Below, piece after piece: positions 2,041 through 63,522 of a DNA stretch of 64,000 nucleotides. The DNA lies in NCBI GenBank assembly GCA_030789695.1, contig CM061141.1, positions 321,472,452 to 321,536,451 on the forward strand. The letters are read 5' to 3'. Position numbers and translations under genes: made by a program. The first letter of the stretch is position 1; each line of letters starts with the position of its first letter. The stretch comes from Scilla litardierei (Eukaryota; Streptophyta; Magnoliopsida; Asparagales; Asparagaceae). The notes below the pieces were generated by a model, which worked only from the letters and a program-made list of their open reading frames with translations, was not told the origin of the DNA and did not search any database.

Positions 2041-2576
2041 AGTCGGTCAAAGAACAATCACTGACCGACTAGTTCATCAACTAGTCGGTCAGTCAAACAG
2101 CATGGACCGACTAAGAGAGGAACTGAGAAGAAAGAGAATTTCAGACCTAGAAATCTAGTCGGTCCAAGAAGACTTTCTGACCGACTAGTTTCACAACTAG
2201 TCGGTCAGTCAGAGAACGTAGACCGACTAAGAGGCAAAATGAAATAGTCTGAACACAAGTTGACTTAGTCGGTCCAAGAACAAAAGTTGACCGACTAGAT
2301 TGTCAACTAGTCGGTCACCAAACGTTCTTAGACCGACTAACGATAAACAGTAGCTAAGGAGAAATTTAGCATGAACAGTAAGTCACAACTAGTCGGTCAA
2401 AGAAGCATCACTGACCGACTAGTTCACAAACTAGTCGGTCGGTGAGTCAACGTAGACCGACTAACTGTAAACAGTAAAGTCCAAGAAATTAAGGAATCAA
2501 ACTAGTCGGTCCAAGAAGAGTTGCTGACCGACTAGATCACCATCTAGTCGGTCAGTACTTCTTCTTGTACCAACTA
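2041..2576 (-). promoter_or_regulatory. AGTCGGTC/GACCGACT hairpin array in U3
   Basis: Five units of roughly 70-80 bp each hold four half-sites in the order AGTCGGTC, GACCGACTAG, CTAGTCGGTC, GACCGACTAA. The two inner half-sites form a hairpin with about 14-bp arms and a short loop; the outer two can pair around it. I count about 20 copies of ACCGAC or its complement in 536 bp. ACCGAC is the DRE/CRT core (A/GCCGAC) bound by DREB/CBF factors in plants. Its position just upstream of the TATA box suggests an enhancer; function is inferred. Confidence 0.85.
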
Positions 2577-2978
2577 ACATGCACAAACAAGTCCGAATCG
2601 AAGCGCGACGCTTCGAGGAAGTTAGAATGAACTTGTGCTAAGATCCTAGAGCTACGATATGAGCGATATGAAGATAGAAACGTAAGATATACTCAAGGCT
2701 TAACATTCTATATATCGAAGCTAAAAAGACTATAAATAAAACCTTAATAAACGGTCTTTGAGAGCTTCGATTGATTCTTCATCACTTCCAAAACGGCGCA
2801 AGAGCTTCAACGAAGCTTTGGGCAAGAATACGAGTTTTGTGAAGTGTTGAGATGTCGCTTTGAATGTTCTCGTGAATTTGGCGACGATCTCCAATACTGC
2901 GCTCACAAATTGTTAGTTCATGGATTATTTATGTTTGCTCATCATCAAAACCAAATCCGGGGAGTCCAATATTCAACA

Positions 2979-4033: not shown

Positions 4034-5725
4034 TCACGAGGAAGTGGCTGGATCTGCAGTCTCCGTGGGTCCAGTCGACGGAGTGGACTCAGGCTCTGCA
4101 GGGAGAAGAGGTGTCTCAACAGACGGGATCGTCGGGGTAGGAGTGGAAACGACTGGCTCAACAGCAGGGGTCTCAACAGCAGCAGGTGAAAGATGTGCAG
4201 GCTCGACAGCAGGGTCAGCAGCAGGCTCAGAAGTCTGAAGTGCTGAAGCAGAAGTCTCTGGAGCACCGGAAGTGGTGCCATCTCCAGGAGTTGAAGTGGT
4301 AGCAGCAGCAGCAGCAGTTGCCTCATCGCCACGGGCTAAGGAAGTGACAAGCTCATCAAAATCCTCATCGTCCATCTCCTCGGCCTCAGAAACTGAAGGA
4401 GGAAGATCAATCCCCATCATCTGAGCCATACGGCAGACGACCTCCTCGGTACGAGCCAAACGCGACTCATGCCGACGAAGAAGGCGTACGAAATCATCTA
4501 AAGTGGCAGGAGGAGCGGGGGCTGCAGCAGCTGAGGGAGTAGACTGGGAAGCAGATGCGGTAGACCTCTGCACGTGACGAAGCGCCACTAGAGATTTCTT
4601 AACGGCCGTCACGTTCAGAGGAGTACCCAAGGGACGCTCATCGTCAGGAGGGAGAGGGACTCGGAAATGACAAAAGACAAGGGTCAGCAGACAAGGGTAT
4701 GGAATATGCGCAGATTTATTGGTCTTGCGTATACATTCGAAAGAGTCCATCTTATCAAGTATCACGCGAGCCCAATTAATCTCGCACCCCAAGAAAAGAG
4801 CGTAGATCAATTTCAAGAACGGCCGGGATGGAAGTGAAGATGATCCATACTTAGGGAGAAGGCATGACTTCAAGATCAGGTTAAGGACCCACGTATTCGG
4901 CTTGAAAGATTTCGATGGAACACCAATGAATGCGGAGGGTATAACATGGAAGATATCTGAAAGAACTGACTGATCCAAGGAGGAAATATCATCGACGGAA
5001 ATGTCCGAAGGAAGGAGACCACACGACGAGCAACCAAGAATCTCCCCCAAGATTTCTGCCGTGAGAACTATAGGAGTTCCCAAGACAGTAGTCTCGATGG
5101 AGTGGCTGGCATCGTACTGGCCTCGAACACGATTGGCATAGAACAATTTCACAAGGCGAGGATAAGGTTTAGGATTCTCCTTGGGGTCAAAGCGAAGATA
5201 ATCAAGAAGGCCACTATAGGAGAGAAGATCAGCAAGGCCGAGAAAATCAGAAAACTGAACGTAATGCTCTAACAACAGTGGACAGTGCTCTATACGGTTG
5301 TACGCTGCGAGACACTGAGGGTCATCGCGGCACAATGATATGTCTACACCGCCGACTGGCATAAGAGATTTACCCTTAGCCTTACGGGTCTTCGGAGGAG
5401 GAGTAGGTTCCCTAGGGCCAGACTCGTCCTCAGGCACGAACTCAGAGTCGGAATCTGGAGGAGTAGCAGGAGAGTGGGGAATGGGCTTTTTGGTTTTAGA
5501 TTTTCTGGGTTTTACCGTCGCTGTCCTCGGCTTCTTAGGAGGAGGCGAAGATGGAGAAGCTTGGGTAGACTTGGCAGGACGCTTAGGCTTAGGCGGATTC
5601 CTAGGGTCGGAAGGCCCTATAGACATAGGAGAAGCCCCAGAAGAGGCGATAGGAATCCTCGTCTTTGCCATGGTCGAGGCACGACGAGTACAACCAAACG
5701 TCGGGAAGATCAAACACCCTAGCAC
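4034..5725 (-). CDS. ORF3 in env-like position, plant-transposon-protein-like domain
   Basis: An intact 563-codon frame downstream of pol, in the place where Sireviruses carry an env-like gene. An alternative start is the ATG at 5671, which gives a cleaner N-terminus (MAKTRIP). Residues ~1-125 are Pro/Lys/Ser-rich and basic-acidic. Residues ~140-370 are a globular region containing YPRLVKLFYANRVRG near residue 188 and then GTPIVLTAEILGEILG, a pattern I associate with the uncharacterised 'putative plant transposon protein' family. Residues ~390-563 are Ala/Thr/Pro/Glu-rich low complexity. I see no signal peptide or clear transmembrane helix, so the label env-like refers only to position. A decayed relative lies at 46250-47058. 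Confidence 0.7.
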   Translation of the reverse strand: MLGCLIFPTFGCTRRASTMAKTRIPIASSGASPMSIGPSDPRNPPKPKRPAKSTQASPSSPPPKKPRTATVKPRKSKTKKPIPHSPATPPDSDSEFVPEDESGPREPTPPPKTRKAKGKSLMPVGGVDISLCRDDPQCLAAYNRIEHCPLLLEHYVQFSDFLGLADLLSYSGLLDYLRFDPKENPKPYPRLVKLFYANRVRGQYDASHSIETTVLGTPIVLTAEILGEILGCSSCGLLPSDISVDDISSLDQSVLSDIFHVIPSAFIGVPSKSFKPNTWVLNLILKSCLLPKYGSSSLPSRPFLKLIYALFLGCEINWARVILDKMDSFECIRKTNKSAHIPYPCLLTLVFCHFRVPLPPDDERPLGTPLNVTAVKKSLVALRHVQRSTASASQSTPSAAAAPAPPATLDDFVRLLRRHESRLARTEEVVCRMAQMMGIDLPPSVSEAEEMDDEDFDELVTSLARGDEATAAAAATTSTPGDGTTSGAPETSASALQTSEPAADPAVEPAHLSPAAVETPAVEPVVSTPTPTIPSVETPLLPAEPESTPSTGPTETADPATSS

Positions 5726-6002
5726 AAACCCTAGAAGCCCTAGATTCCTACAGCAAACTCGAAATGAACAAGCTGCCCTAGAACCCTAGGAGAACTTTGA
5801 AACCCTAGGAGCTAGTACTTGAAATCAAGGAGAGCAAACCCTAGAATAGGAAATGAGACCTAGGAGGAGGGGGGTTTTACCTAGGAGGAGGAGACGACGG
5901 CGGCGGACGACGGCGATGGCCGGAGATCAGGCCGGAGTCGACGGGAATACGAAGGGGCTCGAGAGGGGTTTGAGATTTTTCGGGCTGGAGCTGAAGGGAA
6001 TA
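5726..6002. other. Leader between internal hairpin array and ORF3
   Basis: G/A-rich on the plus strand with a CGG-rich patch (5890-5930). It would be the 5' leader of ORF3 if that ORF has its own transcript. I see no TATA box here. Confidence 0.4.
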
Positions 6003-6384
6003 CCGACTAAAAAGATTTTTAGTCGGACGAAATGAGATTAAGTCGGTCTGGAAATCGAAAAGACGCATTTGCCCTAACCCACTTAGTCGGTCACAGTTCA
6101 AGCACTGACCGACTAGATTACGATCTAGTCGGTCGGTTAATGAGCTTGAACCGACTAAGTCGAAACAGAGGCAAACATGGATTTTTAGGGCTAGAATTAG
6201 TCGGTCGCAGTATACTCACTGACCGACTAATTTTCAATCTAGTCGGTCGGTAAGTGTACTGAGACCAACTAAAGAAAGAAAAAGATAAGAGTAAGATAAA
6301 AGCTTGATCTAGTCGGTCTGAGTTCATTTGCTGACCGACTAGATGAGCATCTAGTCGGTTGACAAATGAACTAAAACCGACTAG
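6003..6384 (-). promoter_or_regulatory. Internal AGTCGGTC/GACCGACT hairpin array upstream of ORF3
   Basis: Three full hairpin units (about 6084-6150, 6198-6272, 6310-6384) plus a partial one carry the same half-site order as the U3 arrays. The array sits between the end of pol (6628) and the start of ORF3 (5725), that is, upstream of ORF3 on its sense strand. It could be an internal promoter or a recombination scar from U3. Confidence 0.75.
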
Positions 6385-6627: not shown

Positions 6628-9600
6628 CTATATCTCGGATTCACCCATAATCCCCAATTCTCGACGCAACCACACAAAGGAGTCCTCCTTTAGGGGTTTC
6701 GTGAAAATATCGACGATTTGCTTTTGGGTTTCAACGTACACTAAAATGATGTCCTTTTTAGCAACATGATCATCTAAGAAATGGTGTCGGACATCTATGT
6801 GTTTTGATCGGGAATGGTGCACCTGATTCTTTGAAAGACAGATAGCACTTTGGTTATCCACCATGATAGGGCTAGTATCACAGTGAATACCAAAATCCTT
6901 CAAAGTGTGTCTCATCCAAAGAACCTGGGCACAAGCGGCACCGGCGGCAATATATTCCGCCTCGGTGGTTGAAAGTGATACGGAATTTTGCTTCTTGGAA
7001 AACCAAGAGACAAGAGAATTTTCTAGAAAATGGCAAGTGCCACTAGTACTTTTCCTGTCGGATTTGCATCCCGCATAATCGGCATCACTGTATGAGACTA
7101 ACTCATACGTGCTAGATTTTGGATAAAGTAATCCAAAATCAAGTGTATAACTTAGATAACGGAAAATACGTTTTACCGCTACTAAGTGAGACTCCTTAGG
7201 TTGAGACTGATAACGAGCACATATGCATACGGCAAACATAATATTGGGCCTACTTGCGGTAAGATAAAGTAAACTACCTATCATACCTCGATATAGACGA
7301 ATGTCTACATCCTTACCGCCCGTATCCTTGTCGAGATGCGTAGTCGTGCTCATTGGAGTCTTTTTCCCGGAAGCACTTTCCATTCCAAATCGCTTAAGCA
7401 ACTCCACCGTATACTTCGTTTGGTGGATGAAGATTGCATCGTTCATTTGGCGAATTTGGAGACCTAAGAAATATTTGAGTTCGCCCATGTGGCTCATCTC
7501 AAATTGTTCCTTCATAACATTAGAAAACTCTTCGCAAAGAGTGAAGTTAGTAGCACCGAAAATAATATCATCAACATAAATTTGAACTAATAAAATATCA
7601 TTATTCGCATGCTTAACAAAAAGTGTAGAATCGGCTTCGCCCATTTTAAAATTCAAATCCAAAAGAAAATTCTTTAGGCGATCATACCAAGCTCGAGGAG
7701 CTTATCTCAAACCATAAAGAGCTTTCTTTAGTTTAAAAACATGATTTGGAAATTTTTCATTTATGAAGCCCGGAGGTTAAGAAACGTAAACTTCCTCAAC
7801 AACATCTCCGTTTAAAAATGCACTTTTAACATCCATTTGAAATAACTTAAAATTTTTATGGCATGCATAAGACAATAAGAGTCTAATTGATTCTAATCGG
7901 AGCTATCGGAGCGAAGGATTCTTCGAAATCGATACCTTCCTCTTGGCGATAGCCTTGAGCAACTAACCGAGCTTTGTTCCGGATGACGACTTGATTTTCG
8001 TCGGATTTGTTCTTGAAGATCCACTTTGTCCCTATGACGGTGTGGTTCTTCGATGGCAAAGGAACAAGCTCCCATACCTCATTCCTCTCGAATTGAATGA
8101 GTTCCTCCTCCATGGCAAGGATCCAAGCACTATCTTCGCACGCTTCAACTATATTCTTTGGCTCTATTGATGAGACAAAGGCACTATTGGTGAAGTGGTG
8201 GACTTGAGATCTCGTCTTGACACTATCATGAATATTGCCAATGACTTGCTCATGGGGATGGTCACGAAAGGTATGAAGCCGCTTGGGAATACCTTGATCA
8301 CTAGGCACATTCTCAACAACTTCATTAGTTGGGTTAGTCTCAATTGAATCAATTGAATCAATAGACTTAGAATTTTCAAACGAATCACATAAAACATCCA
8401 TAGAATCATTATCATTTGAAATTCTAGAAGTAGTAAAATTCTCATTAAAAGAGACATGAAGTGATTCCTCGATCGTAGAGGATCTTTTGTTGTATATCCG
8501 GTAGGCTTTGCTACGAGAGGAATACCCAACAAATATCCCCTCATCCGATCTCGGATCAAACTTGTCCAAATTATCATATGTGTTTTTAATAAAACATTTT
8601 GCGCCGAAAACACGAAAATGTTTAACTTGAGGCAATCTACCAAACAACAATTCATAGCAAGTTTGTTTGGTGCCGGGCCTCAAAAGTATTCTATTAAACA
8701 CATAGCAAGCGGTGTGTACCGCTTCCGCCCAAAATTGATAACCAAGTTGACTATCTTCGAGCATAGTGCGAGCACACTCCACAAGCGTTCTATTCTTCCT
8801 CTCAACAACACCATTTTGAGGAGGTGCGCGAGGGAAAGAAAACGTGTGAGTAATTCCAAGATCATCACAAAAATTTGAGAAAGACTCATTCTCAAATTCA
8901 CCCCCATGATCACTACGAATAGTGACAATGGTGGTTCCGATGAGATTTTGTACTTTCTTCACAAATATTGTGAAGTTTTCAAAAGCTTCATTTTTATTAC
9001 TTTAGAAAAATACCCATGTAAATCTTGAATAATCATCAACGATGACTAGTCCATATCTTGCATTTCCTAAGGAAGCAACTCTAGTTGGCCCAAATAAATC
9101 TAGATGTAATAGCTCTAGTGGCCGTTTCGTAGAAATGCTTTTCTTAGGTTTAAATGAAGATTTAGGAAGCTTGCCACGTTGACAAGAATCACAAAAACTT
9201 TTCTTTTCAAAAACGAGCTTCGGAAAACCTTTAATGGAATTTAATTTCGAAAGTTTATAAAGTGTTCCAAAGTTCACATGTCCAAAGCGTCGATGCCATA
9301 AGTGTTGTTCACTTGTGTTGGCAACGAGACATTGTTCATATGACTTAGGAAGATCCAAAATATAAATATCTTTATGGCGTGTGCCGGAAAATAATAATTT
9401 ATTATTATTATTTGAAATATGACACAATCCTTTCGCAAAGCTAACTTTGTAACCTTTGTCACAAAGTTGGCTTATTGAAATAAGATTATGATTTAAACCA
9501 TCAACTAAATAAACATCACTAATTAAGGGTTTAGAAGGGTTACCCACTTTACCAACACCGACGATGGTTCCGCTCTCGTTGCCTCCAAATACGACGCGAT

Positions 9601-9742
9601 TTCCATTTGCAATGGGAACCACTCCGGAGAGCAATTGAGCGTCACCCGTCATGTGTTTTGAACATCCGCTATCGAGTATCCAATTCCCTTTGGAGCTAAA
9701 TTTAAATTTGTTGCTCCTTTTCTTTTTCTTTTCCTTGAGTAC
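6628..9742 (-). pseudogene. Copia pol: protease, integrase, RT, RNase H (broken)
   Basis: The frame opens after a stop at 9743-9745. Protease: WILDSGCSKHMTG near 9690, with the catalytic DSG. Gag-pre-integrase: HLWHRRFGH near 9290. Integrase: LHLDLFGP, SDHGGEFENE and NGVVERKNRT carry the D,D,E triad. RT: YVDD at about 7560-7585. RNase H: YSDADYAGCKSDRKSTSG. Damage: in-frame TAA at 9002-9004 in the integrase, a frameshift near 7900 at the start of RT, and TAA codons at 7777-7779 and 7702-7704 where the family has glutamine. The frame after 7662 is otherwise clean to its stop. This copy cannot make a functional polyprotein. Confidence 0.9.
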
Positions 9743-9796
9743 CTAAAGATAGAAACTTTCATATCATGGTACCCAAGGTCATTGGGTCCTCAAGAG

Positions 9797-12037
9797 TTAG
9801 ACCTTTGGAAGCCAAGTCCAATTGGACTTAGACTTCCCCACATAATTTCTACTATGCACAACATCTGAAAAATAAGCATTCATATACATTTGTTTTTCAT
9901 CCATGCTTGTGTCCTTTGGGCTCCAAATAGTGAAGATTTTGGGAGCCATCATCCTATTGGGTGCATGCATGCGTTGTTGATTTTTACGTGATGCATGTAG
10001 TGGATAGGCATAAGGAACATGATGGAATGGTGCACGCCGAGAATTATTCATATGATGAGGTGGGTGAACATATGCATGTGTGGGAACACGTGCGTGAGGG
10101 TGTCTCACATGGTGTGCACGTGCCCGAGAATGTGTTGCATAAAAATCATCATATGTGTGAGATGGTGGAGTAGGACGTGTGTTCCTACGTGGCATGATAT
10201 TTGTGTACATATAAGCATGCCCCTTCTTTGGAGGTCCACCCAAAGTGGGGTTCTTTCCAAAAGAGGGTGTGGACGAGGTGGAAGCACCATTGGTAGATGA
10301 ACTACCAATAGAGTGTTTGCTACCACTCGTAGAGTCACCGGAAGTTGGCCTAACAAAAGTAGTGGCCGCTTTGGACGAACATCCCATCGTATACCCCAAA
10401 CCAATGTGGTGATTGGCCGGAAGTAAGTCACTTAGGATTTTATCCAAATGGTCCTTACCCTTATTGAATCTATTGATTCGGCCTAATGTGTTCTCATATT
10501 TCTCTTTGAGAGAACGCATAGAAATATCCAAAGTGGATACTTGCGATGTGAGCACATAAACACGAGATTTAAGATTCTCGTTCTCAATACTCAAAGTCGA
10601 GTTTTGAGAAGTTAAATCTGCTATCTTATGTTCTTCTGGATCATCAATGCTAACATGTTCAAGTTTAGATTTGAGATTAACAATCTCATGTCTTAACTCT
10701 TCAACAACGGTGTCGTTGTTGGTGACGATAGTCTTAGGCGAGGTTTGAATGCTAGCTAGGTCATCTTTTACTTTAGTATATCTATTTACTAACTTAGTGT
10801 ATTCAGACCATAAATGAGAGTTAGCATCCCTAAGGTCATCCATAGTTACCTCATCGCCTTCGTCGTCGCTATCATCGGAGGAGGAAGATCCTTGATCATG
10901 CTCCTCTCTTGCCATGAAGCACATGTGCGCTTGCTCCACTTTCTCATCATCCGACTCTCCGCTTGAGGAATCCTCGGAGTCGGTGAATGTTGTTCCGACA
11001 AGTCCCTTTTTGTACCCCTTTTTGTACTTCTTTGACTTGTCGAACTTCGGCGCCTTCCACTTCTCCTTTTGCTTGTTTTGAGGACAATCTGCTTTGATGT
11101 GTCCTGGCTTATTGCATTTAAAGCACAAAGGTGGAGAGGCGTTAGTAGAGGTAAACTTAGATTTTTGTTTGAAGTTACCCTTTCGGAAGAAGCGATTGAA
11201 CTTCTTTGCCATGAGAGCTACGGATTCCATGTCCATTTCTTCTTCCGAGTCCTCATCATCGGTAGAGGTGGATGAAGCCGCCTTGAATGCAATCGCCTTT
11301 TGCTTAGGCACGTCTTGGTTCAAATAGGACTTCATCTTTTCTTGTAACTTCACCTTGCTATCTTTGCGTACCTCGTATGACATCAAAGTACCCATTAATT
11401 GAACTACGGTATATTTATTCATGTCATTACCTTCCTCGATGGCGAAGGTACGTTTTTCCCAAGAAGAGGGAAGTCCTTCAATAAGCTTTGAGCACTTCTC
11501 CTTTTGAGTGTAGGACTTGCCGAGGGCCTCTAACTCGTTTATTATGTCAACGAAGCGAGCGTAATATTCCTTCATCTTCTCGCCCTGTTGCATATGAAAC
11601 ATTTCGTAATCTTTGTTTACGACTACGAGTTTAGAGTCTCTTACCCTACTCGTCCCTTCATGAAGTATGAGGAGGGAGTTCCAAATTTGATATGCACTCT
11701 TACATGTGCATATCTTATTGAAGTCCTCGGGCTCCAATGCGCATTGCAAGGCGTTCATTGCCTTGGCATTGCTTACCTCCGCGGCGACCTCCGCGGTAGT
11801 CCATTTCTCAAAGTCTTCTTCTTCGGGCTCTATGTATTCCTTCATTGTGGTCCTCCATAAGGATGCACTCCGGAGGAAGGTTTCCATCCGGTATTTCCAG
11901 TACCCGTAGTTGGTACCGTTGAAGAATGGAGGCCTCGTAGAGGAATGTCCTTCCATCACCGAAGATGCTCCTTCTCGGTTCCTGAAGGTGTCATAGTTGG
12001 AAGGTGGACGCACGGTCTTGTTGTCGTTGGCAGACAT
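9797..12037 (-). CDS. gag: Copia (Sirevirus-type) Gag
   Basis: A 746-codon frame starting 13 bases inside the primer-binding site. Residues ~35-260 are the copia capsid region (FFNGTNYGYWKYRMETFL; EYYARFVDIINELEALG). A CX2CX4HX4C zinc knuckle starts at residue 305 (CFKCNKPGHIKADC) and is followed by a Lys-rich stretch. Residues ~350-400 are Asp/Ser-rich, and ~410-560 form a likely coiled coil (TSQNSTLSIENENLKSRV). The last part is His/Pro/Ser-rich. The extended C-terminal tail is typical of Sireviruses. Gag packages the genomic RNA in cytoplasmic particles. It ends at a stop about 50 bases before the protease frame, with other stops between. Whether a normal element reads through here I cannot say. 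Confidence 0.9.
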   Translation of the reverse strand: MSANDNKTVRPPSNYDTFRNREGASSVMEGHSSTRPPFFNGTNYGYWKYRMETFLRSASLWRTTMKEYIEPEEEDFEKWTTAEVAAEVSNAKAMNALQCALEPEDFNKICTCKSAYQIWNSLLILHEGTSRVRDSKLVVVNKDYEMFHMQQGEKMKEYYARFVDIINELEALGKSYTQKEKCSKLIEGLPSSWEKRTFAIEEGNDMNKYTVVQLMGTLMSYEVRKDSKVKLQEKMKSYLNQDVPKQKAIAFKAASSTSTDDEDSEEEMDMESVALMAKKFNRFFRKGNFKQKSKFTSTNASPPLCFKCNKPGHIKADCPQNKQKEKWKAPKFDKSKKYKKGYKKGLVGTTFTDSEDSSSGESDDEKVEQAHMCFMAREEHDQGSSSSDDSDDEGDEVTMDDLRDANSHLWSEYTKLVNRYTKVKDDLASIQTSPKTIVTNNDTVVEELRHEIVNLKSKLEHVSIDDPEEHKIADLTSQNSTLSIENENLKSRVYVLTSQVSTLDISMRSLKEKYENTLGRINRFNKGKDHLDKILSDLLPANHHIGLGYTMGCSSKAATTFVRPTSGDSTSGSKHSIGSSSTNGASTSSTPSFGKNPTLGGPPKKGHAYMYTNIMPRRNTRPTPPSHTYDDFYATHSRARAHHVRHPHARVPTHAYVHPPHHMNNSRRAPFHHVPYAYPLHASRKNQQRMHAPNRMMAPKIFTIWSPKDTSMDEKQMYMNAYFSDVVHSRNYVGKSKSNWTWLPKV

Positions 12038-12049
12038 AGCTAAGTATCT

Positions 12050-12062
12050 GGCTCTGATACCA
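12050..12062 (-). other. Primer-binding site, initiator tRNA-Met
   Basis: The minus strand reads TGGTATCAGAGCC, complementary to the 3' end of plant initiator tRNA-Met, two bases inside the right LTR. It primes minus-strand cDNA synthesis and fixes the element's orientation. Confidence 0.95.
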
Positions 12063-12814
12063 AATGTAATGCCCTACAAGCTACTGCACAAGTACTAGAG
12101 GGGGGGTGAATAGTACTTTAAAATAATAAGGAGTATAATTCCAAATTAAATTGCAAACAACTACCAAATCAATTTGCGGAAGCTTAAATTGAATGACAAC
12201 AACAAAATTAACAATGCAAACAAATGATGTTAATGGGTTCGGATCCACCCAAGTCTCCCCGACTTGTTCCCGGTGATCCTACGTCCCAACCACCCGGATC
12301 CCCTCCGGATACTTGAGTTAGAAACCCTAACTCAAGATTTCCACTATGAATATCTTGTGAAAAACCTTCACAAGATCAAATCATACAACAACGACAATAG
12401 TGAATCCCACAACCCGGGATCACAACCTTCTCTCACAACCGAGAGAATCAACAAGCAATATAAATGAGTTATATTGAAATAAGCAAACTTACCACAAAAT
12501 CCTATACCTTGAGTTTTTCTTACCCAATAGGTGAAATGAAGGATTTGAGGAAGATGAAGTCACCAAGACCTAGCACCAAGGAAATGACCAGCAATCGGTG
12601 CCTAGGGATGATTTGGAGACTTGGATCAAGCAATAGCTTGAAGATCTCACCAAGAACAAGCTTCTCTCTAGATGGATTCTAGATCTAGAAATGAGAGAGA
12701 ATGGGTTTCTTGTGAGGAAGAGAGCTTTTAATTTGATTGAGAATGGCTATCTCTTTTGATCTCAATGAATCTCTGAATGGAAGCTCTAACCTAGATAGAA
12801 ATGACCTAGGTTCG

Positions 12815-12823
12815 TATTTATAG
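12815..12823 (-). promoter_or_regulatory. 5' LTR TATA box
   Basis: CTATAAATA on the minus strand, at the same offset in the LTR as 1977-1985. As the 5' LTR copy, this is the promoter expected to drive the element's genomic RNA. Confidence 0.78.
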
Positions 12824-12878
12824 GGTCCCATAAAAACAACTTAGGTCATTCTCCAACGGATAGAAAACTGGGAGAATT

Positions 12879-13414
12879 AGTCGGTCAAAGAACAATCACT
12901 GACCGACTAGTTCATCAACTAGTCGGTCAGTCAAACAGCATGGACCGACTAAGAGAGGAACTGAGAAGAAAAAGAATTTCAGACCTAGAAATCTAGTCGG
13001 TCCAAGAAGACTTTCTGACCGACTAGTTTCACAACTAGTCGGTCAGTTAGAGAACGTAGACCGACTAAGAGGCAAAATGAAATAGTCTGAACACAAGTTG
13101 ACTTAGTCGGTCCAAGAACAAAAGTTGACCGACTAGATTGTCAACTAGTCGGTCACCAAACGTTCTTAGACCGACTAACGATAAACAGTAGCTAAGGAGA
13201 AATTTAGCATGAACAGTAAGTCACAACTAGTCGGTCAAAGAAGCATCACTGATCGACTAGTTCACAAACTAGTCGGTCGGTGAGTCAACGTAGACCGACT
13301 AACTGTAAACAGTAAAGTCCAAGAAATTAAGGAATCAAACTAGTCGGTCCAAGAAGAGTTGCTGACCGACTAGATCACCATCTAGTCGGTCAGTACTTCT
13401 TCTTGTACCAACTA
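12879..13414 (-). promoter_or_regulatory. AGTCGGTC/GACCGACT hairpin array in 5' LTR U3
   Basis: Five hairpin units as in 2041-2576, with one half-site mutated to GATCGACT. The array lies immediately upstream of the TATA box on the transcribed strand. Confidence 0.85.
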
Positions 13415-13821
13415 ACATGCACAAACAAGTCCGAATCGAAGCGCGACGCTTCGAGGAAGTTAGAATGAACTTGTGCTAAGATCCTAGAGCTACGATATGA
13501 GCGATATGAAGATAAAAACGTAAGATATACTCAAGGCTTAACATTCTATATATCGAAGCTAAAAAGACTATAAATAAAACCTTAATAAACGGTCTTTGAG
13601 AGCTTCGATTGATTCTTCATCACTTCCAAAACGGCGCAAGAGCTTCAACGAAGCTTTGGGCAAGAATACGAGTTTTGTGAAGTGTTGAGATGTCGCTTTG
13701 AATGTTCTCGTGAATTTGGCGACGATCTCCAATACTGCGCTCACAAATTGTTAGTTCATGGATTATTTATGTTTGCTCATCATCAAAACCAAATCCGGGG
13801 AGTCCAATATTCAACAATTGT

Positions 13822-25898: not shown

Positions 25899-26619
<721 letters not shown>

Positions 26620-27023
26620 GGGTAAAGTGTTCCTAGGGTGACTCCTTAGATTAAATCTAAGGAGTCGCCCCCATTTTCCCACATCTCCCACAATTTTTTT
26701 TGAATTTTTTTTTCTTGGGATTGTTGTTCACCTCATGGATGATCAACATACCAAAAACCAAGTCAATCCAATACTTTTATAACCCCCATCTACCCCTTGC
26801 AACTTCAACGGTCTGAAAACGTGCTGAAAAACACATAAAGTTGCAAGGGGTAGATGGGGGTTCTAAAAGTATTGGAATGACTTGGTTTTTGGTATGTTGA
26901 TCATCCATGAGATGAACAACAATCCCAAGAAAAAAAATTTCAAAAATAATTGTGGGAGATGGGAGAAAATGGGGGTGACTCCTTAGATTTAATCTAAGGA
27001 GTCACCCTAGGAACACTTTACCC
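26620..27023. mobile_element. Foldback element M1, copy 2
   Basis: 404 bp, the same ends and terminal hairpins as copy 1, with a diverged core. Embedded in (TA)n on both sides (ATACATATA variants on the left). Confidence 0.85.
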
Positions 27024-27050
<27 letters not shown>

Positions 27051-27054
<4 letters not shown>

Positions 27055-27435
27055 GAGGGCTCAAATGACCCCCAAAAATAACCCCCAAAAATGACCCCAT
27101 ATCAAAAATCCTATGCCCCCCATTTTTTCGGAAGATCCGAACCGTTCATCTTGATCTCCACCCTCTAAATACCTGACCCACCAATTTTCAACCCGATCAC
27201 ATGTGTTTTGCCCGTTCATCAACCATTCGCAAAAGTTCTGTTCATGCGAAACCGTTAAATTTGGGTCGGATAGATGAACGGGCAAAACACATGGGATTGG
27301 GTTGAAAATTGGTGGGTCAGGTATTTAGAGGGTGGAGATCAAGATGAACGGTTCGGATCTTCCCCAAAAATGGGGGGCATAGGATTTTTGATAGGGGGTC
27401 ATTTTTGGGGGTTATTTTTGGGGGTCATTTAATCC

Positions 27436-27440
<5 letters not shown>
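27051..27440. mobile_element. Foldback element M2
   Basis: A near-complete palindrome of ~390 bp with ends TGAGG...AAATGACCCCC and repeated CCCCCAAAAATGA motifs near both ends. The centre lies near 27245. Flanked by (TA)n. The sequence is unrelated to M1 apart from architecture, and a core motif around TAGATGAACGGGCAAA recurs in M5 (60634-60980). Confidence 0.8.
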
Positions 27441-27532
<92 letters not shown>

Positions 27533-27534
<2 letters not shown>

Positions 27535-28084
27535 CCATATACACGTTCGCTCATACACACCAGATTCTTATTCTAATAGTAGGTATACATACAGACATGT
27601 ATATATATATACCTATTAAGATCCATGCATTATGCACATACATTACCATGTATGGGCACACATACACCTACACACATACTATACTTATCCTGCTTTTACA
27701 CCTATACAGTCAAGCTACTCAACTATATTAGCAGATAGTCGATAGCTACCCATACCACTATATACATAACATCCAATATGTCCATACTTTTTCTAACATA
27801 CTAGTATATGCACAAATATATGTATTTCAATATTCATACACATTCGATAGATGGCCACATCCGCTATACGTACACATCCATATACTGATACATGTATATC
27901 AAAATAGGGATCATTCACATACATACACATATAGTCACTCACAAGACATGCACCAATACACGTTCAATGACACATATACACAATCACACCACACTAGCTA
28001 CAACACACCCATATACACACAAATATCACATATACCATTATACAATCCCCCTTCATGCCACCATATAGAGAAAAATACATACAC
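27533..28084. other. G-poor spacer
   Basis: A/C/T-rich sequence typical of the internal region of gypsy B. No gene. Confidence 0.6.
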
Positions 28085-28085
28085 T

Positions 28086-28137
<52 letters not shown>
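28085..28137. repeat. (TG)n microsatellite
   Basis: About 26 TG units directly left of foldback M3. Confidence 0.95.
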
Positions 28138-28139
<2 letters not shown>

Positions 28140-28153
28140 AAAAATGGAGAAGA

Positions 28154-28523
28154 GCTGACAGCGCTGGAAATTTTTCCAGCGCTGTCCGCATTTTGGGCGA
28201 GATAAAAGTATTTTTTTTGAAATTTTTTTTTGCAGTAGTTAGATATACGTGTTGGGAAGCTCCCCACAAAATTTCAGCTCGATCCGACACCGTTTGAGCC
28301 TCCGTTCATCGATTTCAAAAACGTTACGCAAAACTGTGGACAGATTTGCGTAACGTTTTTGAAATCGATGAACGGAGGCTCAAACGGTGTCGGATTGACC
28401 TGAAATTTTGTGGGGAGCTTCCTAACACGTATATCTAACTACTGCAAAAAAAAATTTGAAAAAAAATATTTTTATCTAGTCCAAAATGCGGACAGCGCTG
28501 GAAAAATTTCCAGCGCTGTCAGC
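28154..28523. mobile_element. Foldback element M3
   Basis: A ~370-bp palindrome with GCTGACAGCGCTGG at the ends. Each end contains a small hairpin with arms ACAGCGCTGGAAA (28157-28186 and 28491-28519). The centre is around 28335, with a loop of about 20 bases. Flanks are (TG)n on the left and (TA)n on the right. No coding capacity. Confidence 0.85.
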
Positions 28524-28534
28524 ATTGGCCCATT

Positions 28535-28613
<79 letters not shown>

Positions 28614-28615
<2 letters not shown>

Positions 28616-29011
28616 GTAAAGTGTTCCTAGGGTGACTCCTTAGATTAAATCTAAGGAGTCGCCCCCATTTTCTCCCATCTCCCACAATTTTTTTTGAAAT
28701 TTTTTTCTTGGGATTGTTGTTCACCTCATGGATGATCAACATACCAAAAATCAAGTCATTCCAATAATTTTAGAGCCCCCATCTACCCCTTGCAACTTTA
28801 TGTGTTTTTCAGCACGTTTTCAGACCGTTGAAGTTGCAAGGGATAGATGGTGGCTTTTAAAGTATTGGAATGACTTGATTTTTGGTATGTTGATCATCCA
28901 TGATGTGACCAACAATCATATGAAAAATAATTTCAAAAAAAATTGTGGGAGATGTGAGAAAATGAGGGCGACTCCTTAGATTTAATCTAAGGAGTCACCC
29001 TAGGAACACTT

Positions 29012-29016
<5 letters not shown>
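28614..29016. mobile_element. Foldback element M1, copy 3
   Basis: 403 bp, same termini and terminal hairpins as copies 1 and 2, flanked by (TA)n. Confidence 0.85.
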
Positions 29017-29047
<31 letters not shown>

Positions 29048-29049
<2 letters not shown>

Positions 29050-29448
29050 GTAAAGTGTTCCTAGGGTGACTCCTTAGAATAAATCTAAGGAGTCGCCCTC
29101 ATTTTCCCATATATCCCACAATTTTTTTGGATTTTATTTTTCATGGGGTTGTTGTTCATATCATGGATGGTCAACATACCAAAAATCTAGGCATTCCAAT
29201 ACTTTTAGAACCCCCATCTACCCGTTGCAACTTCAAGGGTTTTTCAACACGTTTTTAGACCGTCGAAGTTGCAACGGGTAGATGGGGGTTCTAAAAGTAT
29301 TGGAATGCCTTGATTTTTGGTATGTTGACCATCCATGATATGAACAACAACCCCATGAAAAATAAAATCCAAAAGAATTGTGGAATATGGGGGAAAATGA
29401 GGGCGACTCCTTAGATTTAATCTAAGGAGTCACCCTAGGAACACTTTA

Positions 29449-29450
<2 letters not shown>
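29048..29450. mobile_element. Foldback element M1, copy 4
   Basis: 403 bp, separated from copy 3 by 31 bp of (TA)n. The pair spacing resembles that of copies 1 and 2, hinting at duplication or repeated targeting of the same microsatellite. Confidence 0.85.
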
Positions 29451-29516
<66 letters not shown>

Positions 29517-30831: not shown

Positions 30832-31612
30832 TGTCACACCCCTTCCCCAGAATACCCGGCATTTAAATTTTTTTTCCAAGTATCATGAAGAGTGAGGGTG
30901 AAGAGAGAGGAAAAAAGAGAGAAAAAGAAGCAACTGAATAAGCAGGCTAACATGTGCGCACATGTTAGGATAGTACAAGTGCAGCTTCATTAATATATCA
31001 AACAACTCATGAATAACATAGAACAACAAAAAATTTATATAACCACTTTCATGTACATACATAGCCCAAGTGACCACTACACATACACCGCCACTCACCA
31101 CCTCCCAAGACAACCATGTCACACCACAACTACAACTCATACTAAGTGCTATCCCTGAAAGCCGACTCCAGGTCACCACCAACCATGCTGCCCCTGCTAC
31201 CTGAAAAATAAGGAGGAGCACATCAATGTGTGCCCCAGTAGAAACCAACTTGGATTTGGAACGCCATTCTAAGGTTATCAATCCACAAGGCAAGCCAAGA
31301 GAAATAGAGCATGTAACTAAGTGATATAATGAAAGTAAATAGCTAAAACAATGGAATCATACCTGCGGTCCAATGTCGAGTTACTGCAAGAAAGGGTTAG
31401 CCCGAATAATAATAATAATAATAATAATAACACAAGTGTTCAAGCAACCAATATCTAATAAGATAAGTGCAAGTGCCTGAGGCATGACACAGAGTCACCA
31501 AGAAACAGGCAAAGGGAAGGGGAAGTGATGCCAGCAGTAGAAGTAACACGCAATTCTTATTTTATTATTTCATAATTGAGTTAATTTGAAACTTGGGTAA
31601 ACTGTGTGATAC
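30832..31612 (-). repeat. Gypsy-B right LTR, left part
   Basis: Starts TGTCACACCCC and matches 16408-17170. It stops at GATAC, where gypsy A is inserted, and continues at 44043. Confidence 0.88.
31608..31612. repeat. Target-site duplication GATAC, left copy
   Basis: GATAC precedes TGTTACGCCCC and recurs at 44038-44042 after the right LTR. The uninterrupted site GATACCAGGACC exists at 17172, confirming the insertion point. Confidence 0.95.
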
Positions 31613-33422
31613 TGTTACGCCCCGCTTCCCTAAAATGGAGGCGAGACGTGAGAAGGTCCGCTCAGACGTGGAGCCGTGAAGCTTCGCGCCTGATAAGCGT
31701 CAATAAAACATATGCAGGTCCCTTTAACCACGAGCAGAACAAGATAATAACACAAGGAGATACAGAAATAAAATCCCAAATCTCAGCAATGTCCAAACAT
31801 TAAAATTTAGTTCAACATCCAGAAAAGCCACCAGGCTAAACAGAAAGAGTCTAAAGGCCCAGAACAAGGCCAACAAAGACAAACATAAACAGAGTATTGG
31901 TGCTACGCATTGACAACAAAAACAGTCTAAAACGAAGAACACCAGCAGCCTCTACGACTGATCTCCAATGTCCTCGTACTCCTCAACGAACGCAGGCTCT
32001 GACTTAGCGTCAACAAACACCACGTCCTTCGTAGCACTCTCAGGCTCGGGATCTGACATGTGTCACCCAAAAGAGTAAAGGGGCACATGTCAGCAAGTCT
32101 AACGAGACTTGAGCAAGGAAACGAAAGTGAAGGCAAACTAGCAACCTAGTAGTTCTAGTATGATGCATAACATGGCAAGTATAGTATGGAAGTGACAAGT
32201 AAAGGGAAGTACAAATAGCAAGTATGGCATGGATAACAAGTTTTACAAGTAAAAACACGGACAAGTACAAGTCAAGAAGTTCACGTCAAGTAAACACGTC
32301 AAGTGAACACGTCAATTAAACACGTCAAGTAAACACGTCAAGTAAACAAGTTGGGCACAGAGATTTCATCTGCTGGCTAGAGTGGCTGATCGGGCCAACT
32401 CGTAAGCTCAGGTGACCGCTTATCCCTACCCCTCCACGTGTATCGAGCCAGGGCATTACCCCCGAACACGGAATGCTCGCTTCTGGATCACGAGCCAGGA
32501 AGTGTATTTAGCATAGGGTTGTGCCCGCTAAAAAGCAGGTGCCTAGCCTAGCCTAGGGTTATGCCTGCAACGCAGGTGCCTAGCCGAAAACAAGTAAATC
32601 GGGCATTGGCTATCGACCAACACACGTGGCCCGATTCTGGAACACGAGCCAGGAAACACAAGTATTGTAGCGTGTGCTACGAATGTGACATTCAACATGG
32701 ATAGCATGGATGACATGGCGAGTTATAATGCAATGCGTACAGTTATAGTATTAAAACGTGACAGATAAGATGCAAACAATTAAGGAAGTCGGATCTAGCC
32801 TCGTTGTCAAGCTAGATCCTGAAATTGCGCCTAGGCGGGTATAATTTCGTCGCCTAGTCTCTTTTACGCCTACAACAAGATAATGGCCTAAGACATGTCC
32901 TAAATCACTAGTGGCAAGTTTCACTTGCTTGGCACCAAGGTTGACGATCGACAAGCTCGTCACACAAAATTGTTATCTACGGAGAATGGATCACTGTTAT
33001 GGTGAAACAACATTAGAAACGATATCTAAATCCGGTTCTATAAACGAATCCTACGACGTCTAATCTCCATTTTTATTAGGGTTTCATAATATCAAATGTG
33101 GGTGATGAAAATATTAAAGGTTCGAACACTACCGTAGGAAGCGGAAGATCGATGCCGAGCAAGCACGGCAACGGAAGAAACGATCCGGGGAACCACGGTT
33201 CAGATCTGGAATGGATGGAGAAATCTGGAGAAAATGAGGTTTGATGGGGTTTGGGGAAGGCCGACGGCCTAGGGGTAGTGGCCGGCGCTAGAATGCGTGA
33301 GGGGAGCTCGGGGGATGAAGGAATTGCTCAAGAGGAAGGAGGAATGGTTTAGGATTGAAGGGAAATCCATGGGGAAGAACTAGGTTTAGAGGAGAAAAAG
33401 AAAGAAGAAGAAACTGATCGGC

Positions 33423-33431
33423 TATTTATAG
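33423..33431 (-). promoter_or_regulatory. Gypsy-A LTR TATA box
   Basis: CTATAAATA on the minus strand, about 45-55 bp downstream of the hairpin array. The right LTR has the same motif at 43300-43308 and the solo LTR at 37518-37526. Confidence 0.75.
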
Positions 33432-33474
33432 GGATGAACCGGCGTTCGTCCAAAAATTAGGGTTTCTGGGTTGA

Positions 33475-33890
33475 TTAATCGGTCAAAGAAGGGTTGTTGA
33501 CCGACTGGTTTAAGAACTAGTCGGTCGGTTGACTAACTGTGACCGACTAACACCAAACAGTAACTCAGGTCGTCAAAATGGTCAATGAATTAGTCGGTTA
33601 AAGAACAATGGTTGATCGCCTAGTTTGCAACCTAGTCGGTTGAAAAACGTTCTTAGACCGACTAACGATAAATAGTAACTTAGGTGAAATTAATCAAAGG
33701 AACTAGTCGATCTGAGAGCAAGTTCTGACCGACTAGTTACGCATCTAGTCGGTCAGTGGTTGTTCTTAGATCGACTAAGAGTAAACAGTAACCTCTGGAT
33801 TATTGATTCAATGAACTAGTCGGTTTGAGAAGAGTTGCCGACCGACTAGATCTCAATCTAGTCGGTTGGTTCCCCTTCTTGAACCAACTA
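33475..33890 (-). promoter_or_regulatory. AGTCGGTC/GACCGACT array, gypsy-A left LTR
   Basis: Four hairpin units with the same half-site order as the copia arrays, about 12 intact ACCGAC cores, several half-sites decayed (for example TAATCGGTC, GATCGCCT). Spacers share AAACAGTAA with the copia arrays. Confidence 0.85.
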
Positions 33891-34161
33891 AAGTGCACGA
33901 AAAGTGCCGAATTGAAGCGCAAAGCTTTGGGAAGATTTCTATGGCTTCTACGATCACTCTAACTCTAAAATATGAGCGATTTGAAGTTCGTCATGAGTGA
34001 CTTACTCCAAGATCAACGATATAAGGAAGAAGCTAAAGAATCACAACGAAACGAACAAAAATGAAAGCTACGGAGACGGAAACCACACATAAGGAGAAAA
34101 TCCACCAAAACATATATATATAATATAGATAATCCAAATACATGAAAAACCAGTCGTTACA

Positions 34162-34207: not shown

Positions 34208-35110
34208 TCACGTGTCCGGGAACAAAAGTGGGTTGCGCTCTCTCATCACATCCTCATTCTCCCAAGTAGACTCTCCTGGCGAGCCGTGTCGCCACATCAC
34301 CCTCATAAGATTGACAACCTTGTTCTGGAGTGACTTCTGACGCCTGTCCAAAATCTGCACTGGCTGCTGGTCATACGTCATGTCAGGGCGAATGGTAATC
34401 TCCGAGAAATCCATAGCATGAGATGGATCGCTGATGTATCGACGAAGCTGCGACACATGGAAAACATTATGAACTCCTTCCAAAGATGGCGGCAAGGCTA
34501 AGCGGTAGGCTACCTCACCAACTCTCTCCAGAATGTCAAACGGTCCAATGTATCGCGGGCTCAACTTCCCTCGCTTCCCAAAGCGAATCACTCCACGATT
34601 CGGGGAAATCTTCAAGAACACATGGTCGCCCGGCTGAAACTCCAAAGGACGGCGTTTAGCATCCGCCCAATGCTTAAAATAGTCCTGAGCAATCCTTAAC
34701 CTCTCCCGAATATTCCTGACAATATCCACAGCCTCCACAATCATCTCAGGTCCCAACTGCTCCCGATCACCAACGTCATCCCAACTCAAAGGCGATCGAC
34801 ATTTCCTCCCATAAAGCGCGGCGAAAGGCGCCATGCCAATACTCGCCTGGTAGCTGTTGTTGTAAGAGAACTCCACCAGATGTAGATGGTCCTCCCACGA
34901 ACCCTTGAAATCCAACATGCACTCCCTCAGTATGTCCTTCAAGATCTGAATCGTCCTCTCAGACTGGCCATTTGTCTGCGGATGGTACGCCGTGCTGAAA
35001 CTCAGACGTGTACCCAAACTCTTCTGCAAACTCTGCCAGAATTGAGAAATGAACCTCGTGTCTCTGTCTGACACGATACTCACAGGGACTCCATGAAGTC
35101 GTACGCTCTC
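34208..35110 (-). pseudogene. Gypsy-A integrase C-terminal half and chromodomain
   Basis: SIVSDRDTRF supplies the second catalytic Asp and NGQSERTIQILKDILR the Glu. GPFDILERVG..AYRLALP is the GPY/F module (~34560-34500). The last ~60 residues (YDQQPVQILDRR ... WRHGSPGESTWENEDVMRER) resemble a Tekay-type chromodomain, which directs integration to marked chromatin. The frame is open from 35110 to the stop at 34208, but pol as a whole is broken. Confidence 0.88.
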
Positions 35111-35181
35111 CTGAACGATTCACGTTACATCACTATCTAAACTAGGAAAAGGAAATAGAAATGGAGAGTAAAAGAATTTAC
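35111..35181 (-). other. Putative 71-bp intron in integrase
   Basis: The conserved integrase frame breaks after RYME and resumes at ESVRLHGVPVSIV. Between them, on the minus strand, is a T-rich 71-bp sequence with a GTAAAT start and a TTCAG end; removing it restores frame exactly. It may be a real intron or a small insertion. Confidence 0.5.
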
Positions 35182-35742
35182 CTCCATGTATCTCCTCGCT
35201 AGCGCCTCAGTGGACTGTCCTACTCGGAATGGAATAAAGTGCGCGGATTTGGTCAATCGATCTACGATCACCCAAATCGCGTCATTCTGCTTCGGACTCC
35301 GAGGTAGTCCAGTCACGAAATCCATAGTGATGTGTTGCCACTTCCACTCCGGAATTGGAAGCAGTTGTAGCAACCATGCCGTATGCTAATGCTCCGCCTT
35401 TACCTGCTGGCAAACCAAGCACTTGGCTACACTCTGAGCCACACTCCTCTTCATACCATGCCACCAATAGTTCAGACGAAGATCCTTGTACATCTTGGTG
35501 CCACCAGGATGCACAGAATACGGCGAACTGTGTGCCTCCACCAACAACTCCTCCCTGATATCCCCAGCTGGCACACACACCCTAGCTCCATACCTCAGCG
35601 AGCCATCCTCATGAATCAAAAAGTCAGTCCGCAGACCGGCTTCTACCTGCTCCCAAATCTTCACCAGCTTCGGATCCTCTGCCTGACCAGCCTTGATCCG
35701 ACCCACGATCGTCGACTGTATCTGCATACACATCAACGGAGA
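35182..35742 (-). pseudogene. Gypsy-A integrase N-terminal half
   Basis: Contains the H2C2 zinc-binding region (HPGGTKMYKDLR ... CLVCQQVKAEH) and MDFVTGLP with the first catalytic Asp. An in-frame TAG at 35383-35385 falls where relatives have glutamine. The upstream joining codons are interrupted by the solo LTR. Confidence 0.85.
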
Positions 35743-35747
35743 AGCCT

Positions 35748-38258: not shown

Positions 38259-38263
38259 AGCCT

Positions 38264-38906
38264 CCCCAGGAAGAACAATCTCAAATCCAGACTCGCAAAA
38301 ATCCTGTTGCAATCTCCACTGCGAAGTCAACAACATCACCGATGGAAGCCTACTCAGCGCATCCAGAACCACATTCACCTTGCCAGGGTGATACTGCAAA
38401 TCAATCTCATAATCCGCCATGAGCTCCAACCATCGACACTGTCGCATGTTGAGCTCCTTCTGAGTAAAAATATACTTCAAGCTTTTGTGATCGGTGAAGA
38501 TCTTCACTTTCTCACTCAGCAGGAAGTGCCTCCAAATCTTGAGCGCAAACACGACAGCATCCAACTCCAAGTCATGCGTCGGGTAATTCTTCTCATGAGT
38601 CTTGAGCTGACGCGAAGCATATGCCACAACATGCACGTGCTGATGCAACACACAACCGAGACCCTTGCCAGAAGCATCGCAAAAGATCTCAAATCCTCCA
38701 CTGCGATCAGGCACAACCAGAATAGGGACAGTCGTTAATCTCTCCCTCAGGACACCGAAGGCATTCTCACAATCACCCGACCAAACAAAAGGTACATCCT
38801 TCTGTGTCAATCTGGTCATCGGCTCAGAAATACGGGAAAAGTCCTTAATGAAACGTCGATAGTAACCAGCAAGCCCAAGGAAACTCCAGATCTCAGACGC
38901 TGACTA
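38264..38906 (-). pseudogene. Gypsy-A RNase H
   Basis: [29 protein letters not shown] and [11 protein letters not shown] are typical gypsy RNase H motifs; DALSRLPS follows near 38340. TAG at 38904-38906 separates it from the RT frame, where relatives have glutamine. Confidence 0.88.
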
Positions 38907-40117
38907 CGGAACAGGCCACTCTCTGATGGCCTTAATCTTCTCGGGATCCACTGAAATTCCCTCACCAGTCACCATATGCCCGAGAAATGCAACTCTGTCC
39001 AGCCAAAACTCGCACTTCGAAAACTTGGCATACAAACGATGCTTCCTCAAAATCTCCAATACTGTCCTCAAGTGCGAGGCATGCTCCTCCTCTGACTTAG
39101 AATAGATCAGAATGTCGTCAATAAAGATAACGACAAACTTATCTAAAAAGTCATAGAAGATCAGATCCATCAGATTCATGAAAACTGTGGGTGCATTGGT
39201 TACACCGAAGGGCATAACCACAAACTCGTAGTGTCCATACTTCGTCCTGAATGCTGTCTTCGGAACATCTTCCTTCTTCACCTTCAGCTGATGATAACCA
39301 CTCCTCAGATCCAACTTCGAAAACACCCTCGAACCTCCAAGCTGATCAAAAATATCATCGATGCGAGGCAACGGGTATTTATTCTTCACGGTCACCGCAT
39401 TCAGCTCCCGATAGTCTACGCACATGCGACGCGAACCATCCTTCTTCTTCACCAGCAGCACCGGTGCTCCCCACGGAGACACACTAGGATTGACATAACC
39501 CTTCTGTAAAAGCTCATCCAGCTGCTTCCGCAATTCCTCTAACTTTGCGGGTGTCATACGATAAGGCACTTTCGAAATCGGTTGCGCTCCCGGAATAAGA
39601 TCAATCGAAAACTCGAGAGCTCGATCGGGTGGCAATCCAGACATCTCCTCGGGGAAGACGTCATCGAAGTCCCGCACAACCGCTGGCCTCTCCAGCTCCA
39701 TCTGCATAGCCACAATCTTCACCGGCCTGGCCCGAAATCTGACAGGGCCAAGCGAACTGCTACCTCGGCTGAACTCAAATACTGGATGTCCGGGAATCTC
39801 GAACACCACCTTCTTCCTCCGACAGTCGATCGTAGCATAGAAGCTCGCAAGCCAATCCATCCCAAGGGCCGCATCATAGTTGATGATGTCGTGGACAATG
39901 AAATCAGCGTAAAGCTCATATCCACAAACCACCAACGGGCAAGAATTGCAACCACGATGCACCGAGATCACGCCATTCCCTGTAACGATATTCCAACTCT
40001 TGGAAAGAGGGGACGTCGACAAGGAATGCTTCTCCACGAAGCTCCGAGAAATAATGCACATCGATGCACCAGAGTCAAAGAGGACTCGTGCAGGAAATGT
40101 GCAAACCAGAATCACAC
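38904..40117 (-). pseudogene. Gypsy-A protease and reverse transcriptase
   Basis: Protease: [58 protein letters not shown] and FIDDILIYS (catalytic Asp pair at about 39105-39135). The frame is open across protease and RT and ends at TAG 38904-38906. The frame also extends to an ATG at 40139, but that ATG lies inside a putative intron. Confidence 0.9.
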
Positions 40118-44037: not shown

Positions 44038-44042
44038 GATAC

Positions 44043-63447: not shown

Positions 63448-63522
63448 ACTATATAATATATATACACACACACACATATGTATATACATATGCATATATA
63501 TATATATATATACACATATATA
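63448..63522. repeat. (TA)n/(CA)n microsatellite in intron
   Basis: Interrupted TA and CA repeats directly left of foldback M4. Confidence 0.85.

Follow-up and report, generated by a model that had tools for sequence, protein, structure and literature searches.

A promoter block probably shared by descent between Sirevirus (Ty1/copia) and Ty3/gypsy retrotransposons of Scilla litardierei

The window analysed here, a 64,000-bp stretch of Scilla litardierei DNA, is part of contig C12; the genome comprises 3.68 Gb in 7266 contigs. The window carries several LTR retrotransposons that appear to be of plant type, and those described below, with their parts, are all on the minus strand. The first, copia-1, is a Ty1/copia element of the Sirevirus type, whose 3' LTR (1227-2978) is paired with a 5' LTR at 12065-13816 (99.6% identity, 7 mismatches in 1752), and which is flanked on either side (1222-1226 and 13817-13821) by ATTGT, a target duplication of 5 bp. 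The gag and pol region (6628-12073) is split over several open reading frames with gag_2, zf-CCHC, gag_pre-integrs, rve and RVT_2 domains; the superfamily domains matched were PF14223 (Retrotran_gag_2), PF07727 (RVT_2), SH3_retrovirus and gag_pre-integrs. Between pol and the 3' LTR, in the ENV position, lies an extra ORF (4034-5785, 583 amino acids from stop to stop) that matches PF20167, a putative plant transposon protein, and a structure prediction of this domain from the single sequence gave a mean pLDDT of 37.5, too low to be of use. By eye, polypurine tracts of the GGGGGAG type are present near 2984, 3053, 3183 and 3272, before the 3' LTR. The LTR contains an array of half-sites, AGTCGGTC and GACCGACT, that alternate at distances of 22, 20 and 22 bp. 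At 2041-2575 there are five units of four half-sites each, the final half-site being degenerate, and the copy in the 5' LTR is found at 12879-13413. The array is 55 bp away from the TATA box (CTATAAATA, 1977-1985), and on its other side lies a distal block (2576-2735) that runs from GAATCGAAGCGC to GAAGCTAAA and is collinear with DNA in gypsy elements. A third array with the same half-sites, absent from a preliminary description of this DNA, is located at 6001-6382, downstream of pol and upstream of the extra ORF. The observed/expected CpG ratio of the copia-1 arrays is 0.96 in the LTR and 1.31 upstream of ENV, at a G+C content of just 0.42-0.43. Three copia-1 units stand out by the high complementarity of their spacers (10, 11 and 11 of 14 bases, with a mean of 7 overall), two of them at 6199-6382 and one in the LTR at 2504-2575.

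The second element, gypsy-A, belongs to Ty3/gypsy and has a 3' LTR at 31613-34161 that is 98.1% identical to the 5' LTR at 41502-44037, with the target duplication GATAC at 31608-31612 and 44038-44042. A solo LTR (35748-38258) breaks up its coding region (34208-40914); this LTR belongs to a nested relative, gypsy-B, and has the target duplication AGCCT. There is a weak match to the chromodomain PF00385 (E 0.0028), under its cut-off. Arrays of four units occupy 33477-33889 in the 3' LTR and 43354-43766 in the 5' LTR of gypsy-A, where the TATA box is at 43300-43308, and the gypsy-B array is found at 37572-37984. The adjoining distal blocks are located at 33890-34039 and 43767-43923 in gypsy-A, and reach to about 38104 in gypsy-B. 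Within the window, the arrays of gypsy-A are confined to its LTRs. The preliminary description had proposed that copia and gypsy elements share one U3 promoter block, and much of its anatomy is borne out. The arrays are where it had placed them, and the array to TATA distance, given as about 45-60 bp, measures 55 bp in copia-1 and 45 bp in both gypsy-A and gypsy-B. The elements do belong to different superfamilies, as RVT_2 and Retrotran_gag_2 in copia-1 stand against gag, RVP_2, RVT_1, RT_RNaseH and SH3_Tf2-1 in gypsy-A. In copia-1 and gypsy-A, the ordered U3 motifs show an exact or almost exact match (ATTTGAGCGAT in the 43352 copy), but they are degraded in gypsy-B (GAAATGGAGCAC, ATATCGACGTT, GAAGCTAAA absent). 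Two assignments needed correction: the interval 2041-2760, given for the U3 of the copia-1 LTR, is one part of an LTR that extends over 1227-2978, and 37570-38150, taken for a gypsy-A LTR, is part of the nested solo LTR. The GAAGCGCGAAGCTTCGGGAAG stretch of gypsy-A (43791-43811) matches the consensus of a three-unit heat-shock element (nGAAnnTTCnnGAAn), and the three-unit spacing is not kept in the copia version. At 26019-29516 and 63450-63890, both strands carry a dense cluster of long self-matches, direct as well as inverted, with an identity of about 88-95% inside the first region and lower with the second, and they have the look of nested large palindromes.

In the sense of transcription, each LTR begins with the element's own tip, followed by the distal block and the array; the TATA box comes 45-55 bp further on, and then the element's own R-U5. 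About 150 bp of collinear DNA beyond the array is common to copia-1 and gypsy-A. When aligned from the last half-site outward, copia-1 and gypsy-A scored 357 compared to a mean of 234 for dinucleotide shuffles (z 6.5, 0 of 500), and the same span of the other gypsy-A LTR gave a z of 6.0 (0 of 500), so the likeness beyond the half-sites is above chance. The pairwise comparison of copia-1 with gypsy-B alone was not significant (z 1.0, 86 of 500 shuffles). We then used a profile built from copia distal blocks and starting beyond the array. This array-free profile matched all eight of the first gypsy blocks (E 3e-19 to 6e-7), four of four gypsy loci from the listed array families (E 2e-15 to 1e-7), and all eight gypsy loci among 20 sampled array loci (E 2e-5 to 3e-19). 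The E values within the window were 1.2e-18 and 3.1e-19 for the 3' and 5' LTR of gypsy-A, and 4.1e-7 for gypsy-B. The total of 20 out of 20 gypsy blocks is partly non-independent, as gypsy-A and L010/L011 were each counted twice as LTR pairs. A motif of the distal block served to locate the first loci, and the first eight gypsy blocks were excised by similarity to the distal blocks of the window; the four array-list families and the 20 loci with a longer spacer were selected independently of the distal block. Two of 20 stretches, L009 and L014, contained no array and were excluded before the counts. A single chance-like match occurred elsewhere (L024, E 0.011), and a reversed-sequence control of 343,916 bases contained no match to the copia profile at E values up to 10. 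The reciprocal gypsy profile, which included about 6 bases of the last half-site, matched copia blocks down to 3e-24. In L033 and L035 the distal match spans just about half of the block. Outside the block, the LTRs are dissimilar, as had been described: neither R-U5 of copia and gypsy-A (27 of 200 shuffles equally good) nor the U3 tips of copia and gypsy (103 of 300) showed similarity. The TATA-proximal stretches, compared with copia, were matched by 5 of 500 shuffles for gypsy-A and 0 of 500 for gypsy-B, a likeness that by eye consists mostly of TATTTATAGG itself. Judged by these sequence comparisons, a common origin of the array and the distal block in both superfamilies is well supported. 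What the three window elements have in common is an array and distal block of one origin, a near-fixed spacing, and a similar place before the TATA box; the surroundings differ.

The 20 sampled loci were drawn from 50 listed places on contigs C1-C3 with a one-base longer spacer. By a reading of their matches, they comprise 11 copia LTRs, 8 gypsy LTRs, and one array upstream of ENV, and the copia profile matched 10 of the 11 copia and all 8 gypsy loci. On C1, the first 100 exact pairs listed (23,777-407,395) fall into 16 clusters by hand count. Among the matches listed, 12 clusters are the LTR pairs of six elements, two are of the ENV type, and one matches the LTR of L001; the 16th, at the edge of the matches listed, begins with spacers resembling those of a gypsy cluster. 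Four of these C1 elements were inspected, three of which have a reverse transcriptase (RT) that is 74-93% identical to that of gypsy-A; for the fourth, the part examined contained nothing beyond an LTR and a border that look gypsy-like. A genome-wide satellite, as a source of the likeness, was rejected since all 20 sampled arrays lie in elements. The gypsy lineage with arrays is deep, with RT identities of 74-76% between gypsy-A and two other array families. L010 (4599-7262), L011 (819-3424) and a stretch at C1:54795-61574 (G000) are gypsy-like, with an array promoter and an internal region of about 3.5 kb, and these short elements are probably non-autonomous. No RT match was found in L032.

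The spacing of the half-sites was determined across the window plus the 28 loci collected first, allowing up to two mismatches. Forward-reverse pairs occurred 366 times at 22 bp, compared to once at 21 and twice at 23 bp, and reverse-forward pairs 192 times at 20 bp, compared to once at 19 and never at 21 bp. Smaller peaks at other distances (106 forward-reverse pairs at 18 bp and 30 at 26 bp, 103 reverse-forward pairs at 24 bp) are ascribed to GGTCGGTC read in a shifted register. Genome-wide, AGTCGGTC-N14-GACCGACT is present at 500,384 places, with 2 for the backward control, and the N15 variant at 456 places, with 0 for the control. The N14 pattern is its own reverse complement, so equal counts on the two strands are identical places. 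With about six exact pairs per cluster among the matches listed on C1, the genome would contain, very roughly, 80,000 arrays. Across 61 thinned units, the bases G12, T34, A39 and C61 are nearly invariant as well, thus the actual site is longer than the half-site, and the fixed spacing reflects in part one longer conserved unit. Of the 20 sampled loci, seven have an exact TATTTATAG on the expected side of the array, at a distance of 44 bp (two gypsy), 55 bp (four copia) or 67 bp (one copia), and the other 13 had no exact match there.

A further gypsy LTR in the window, gypsy-C (49644-52560), has a related R-U5, no array, and a different U3. When compared with the LTR of L010, a 1233-bp R-U5 end is about 80% and a 118-bp tip about 86% identical, and the middles do not match (z 1.2, 8 of 60 shuffles as good). 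Its R-U5 is clearly related to that of gypsy-A (0 of 100 shuffles), and its U3 matches none of the tested parts of the gypsy-A or copia U3. Since the gypsy-C U3 is conserved at 90-92% in two further copies, it represents a retained alternative rather than debris. On the evidence of sequence, gypsy-C and L010 demonstrate a promoter replacement between gypsy relatives. By RT, a gypsy-C-type element falls between array-bearing families, two of which are more distant from gypsy-A (74-77%), which makes loss of the block likelier than never having had it, and gypsy-C most likely did lose it. For the same reason we rejected gypsy-C as a sign of an original gypsy lineage without the block, and the likely loss gives no evidence on the direction of transfer. 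One of the two further copies of the gypsy-C U3, L058, contains no AGTCGGT; judging by its position, it belongs to the L018 element, as the outlying part of an LTR that a copia insertion has split. The RT of the L018 element, with stops, is 88% identical to that of gypsy-A, and L057, the expected site of its other LTR, matched none of the references. A gypsy internal stretch, L028, was considered as an array-less relative and dropped, as another insertion is located at its LTR border. The leader of gypsy-C (51849-51907), downstream of the TATA box, contains a repeated palindrome, GTCGCAACGTTGCGAC, that by eye is unrelated to the AGTCGGTC array.

Sirevirus LTRs have been described to carry palindromic repeated motifs (RMs) in many copies, with a CGG-CCG core, shortly upstream of a conserved TATA box (Bousios 2010, PMC2829016). 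The same paper describes further RM clusters upstream of ENV, where ENV is present, lists 13 elements in its Table 3, gives related cores such as CGGTC..GACCG and TCGGTC..ACCGA, and mentions Sireviruses without RMs, some with ENV among them. Copia-1 has a palindromic repeated motif with a CGG-CCG core at both places, before the TATA box and before ENV, and its arrays are thus of the known RM kind in a spaced form. The palindromes in Table 3 of PMC2829016 are compact, with halves 0-4 bases apart by our reading, whereas here spacers of 14 and 12 bases separate the halves in a fixed 22/20/22 pattern, and the block is present in Ty3/gypsy LTRs as well. The preliminary description knew of no described case of this module. 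This does not hold for the array, which is of the described Sirevirus type, but it does hold for Ty3/gypsy, for which no report of RM arrays was found in the literature covered by our search. As far as this search goes, the novelty lies in the presence of the array with its flanking DNA in Ty3/gypsy, and in the rigid spacing.

We favor, with a rough probability of 0.62, the explanation that a gypsy lineage received, in a single transfer, a Sirevirus U3 enhancer made up of the RM array plus the distal DNA next to it, and that this enhancer forms a platform for a DNA-binding factor. The recipient would have been the U3 of a chromovirus-like Ty3/gypsy lineage before the present families diversified, and this lineage would have retained its own LTR tips, the integration ends, and its own R-U5. 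Possibly, a gypsy 3' LTR received a piece of a Sirevirus LTR within its U3, and as this U3 is copied into both LTRs in the next generation, the piece would have spread to both. Template switching may be an alternative route. We infer both the route and the enhancer function; the direction, from Sirevirus to gypsy, is suggested by the RMs published for Sireviruses (PMC2829016). The reference points of the four half-sites in a unit can be placed 21 bp apart, which is two turns of DNA, and a host factor would bind along one face and activate the TATA box about 50 bp away. The two-turn spacing, the many copies and the proximity of the TATA box fit an enhancer that collects one factor along one DNA face. 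The half-site contains ACCGAC, the DRE/CRT core of DREB/CBF factors, and this makes a stress-linked AP2/ERF factor the first candidate for binding the array.

The arrays might instead act as RNA or DNA hairpins, either as a small-RNA source or as cruciforms, and be shared for silencing or evasion. Palindromes in maize Sirevirus LTRs are described as hotspots for small-RNA mapping (PMC5311732), and single units reach 10 or 11 of 14 paired spacer bases despite the mean of 7.0, as in the ENV units at 6199 (10) and 6311 (11) and the copia LTR unit at 2504 (11). However, over 68 units the pairing inside a unit (7.0 of 14) was no better than that between units (7.2; shuffled 3.6). This lack of unit-specific stem pairing favors DNA sites over RNA hairpins, and the features that have been kept are the half-sites and their spacing, not stems. 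We therefore rejected selection for RNA hairpins as the main cause, and consider a hairpin function in general unlikely.

The history of the block was examined with an unrooted tree of 52 blocks, built from the distal block together with the final 80 bp of array, and omitting seven near-duplicate blocks and three sampled loci (L044 and L055 without a profile match, L046 with a partial one). The 19 gypsy blocks were separated from the 33 copia blocks (support 88.5/98), as expected for one old transfer. With midpoint rooting, the gypsy blocks did not form one group, and L033 and L035 came to lie on the copia side, which counts against a firm assignment of the direction of transfer. Clear gypsy partners in the same order were found for two of the five copia LTR units: the unit at 2504 matches the last units of gypsy-A and gypsy-B at 0.75 and 0.70 of the spacer bases, and the unit at 2267 matches those at 43469 in gypsy-A and 37800 in gypsy-B (both 0.72). 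The remaining three units match gypsy units at 0.62 or less, and the resemblance of copia LTR units to the ENV array of copia-1 is less close (0.45-0.65). It is conceivable that the block originated among the gypsy elements and that the Sireviruses of this plant acquired it from them, since by eye the gypsy blocks in the trees are at least as diverse as the copia blocks and the root is not fixed. This reversal seems doubtful to us, as RM arrays have been published for 13 Sirevirus elements of distant monocots and eudicots (PMC2829016), and as copia-1 has the ENV copy too, whereas gypsy-A in the window has LTR arrays only.

The same unrooted split would also result if copia and gypsy elements had each captured the block from one source, a host promoter or a third element. 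Against this stand the 20 of 20 sampled array loci that lie in copia or gypsy elements, and the 15 of 16 C1 clusters that, among the matches listed, are LTR pairs, of the ENV type, or an LTR array already known. This sample, which is small against 500,384 places, contained no orphan source. We regard two captures as improbable, and of the two explanations offered in the preliminary description, exchange between elements is the simplest account, whereas capture from a host promoter is unsupported. Another reading extends the favored transfer: one Sirevirus-derived enhancer would drive both superfamilies and be activated by the PF20167 protein of the Sirevirus extra ORF. This is quite a long shot, suggested solely by the presence of the same array upstream of that ORF. 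If true, gypsy elements would be parasites of a transposon-encoded activator, presumably comparable to VANC of the Arabidopsis VANDAL elements. Convergence on the sites of one factor, with a chance likeness outside the half-sites, might account for the non-significant comparison of gypsy-B with copia-1, but is excluded for practical purposes by the shuffles, the array-free profile that matched 20 of 20 gypsy blocks, and the empty reversed control.

Du et al. 2010 reportedly described autonomous and non-autonomous soybean elements that swap LTRs. This resembles the LTR exchange between gypsy-C and the L010 family, but is said to occur within related elements and not across superfamilies. The CpG islands in the U3 of Del elements (Ty3/gypsy; PMC4029996) are likewise a variable 5' LTR region in a gypsy chromovirus lineage, but they were described for monocots only and not for eudicot Del, and the main text of that paper contains no word beginning with "palindrom-" and names Sirevirus once, in a cited title. 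Stress-type cis elements are present in the LTRs of several heat-responsive COPIA families, including ONSEN, COPIA37 and TERESTRA, and CRT/DRE motifs are mentioned in MCIRE (PMC5059998). According to that paper such cis elements arose repeatedly and independently, whereas here a block of 550-700 bp would be shared by descent. In the classification of LTR retrotransposons, copia and gypsy are treated as separate lineages. A shared, inherited promoter block would mean that regulation can move between superfamilies like a cassette, and that families can thereby switch their mode of activation with their genes unchanged. With 500,384 exact pairs in a genome of 3.68 Gb, the block may place the activity of numerous copia and gypsy elements under one common factor, and our findings suggest that copia and gypsy elements can trade promoters.
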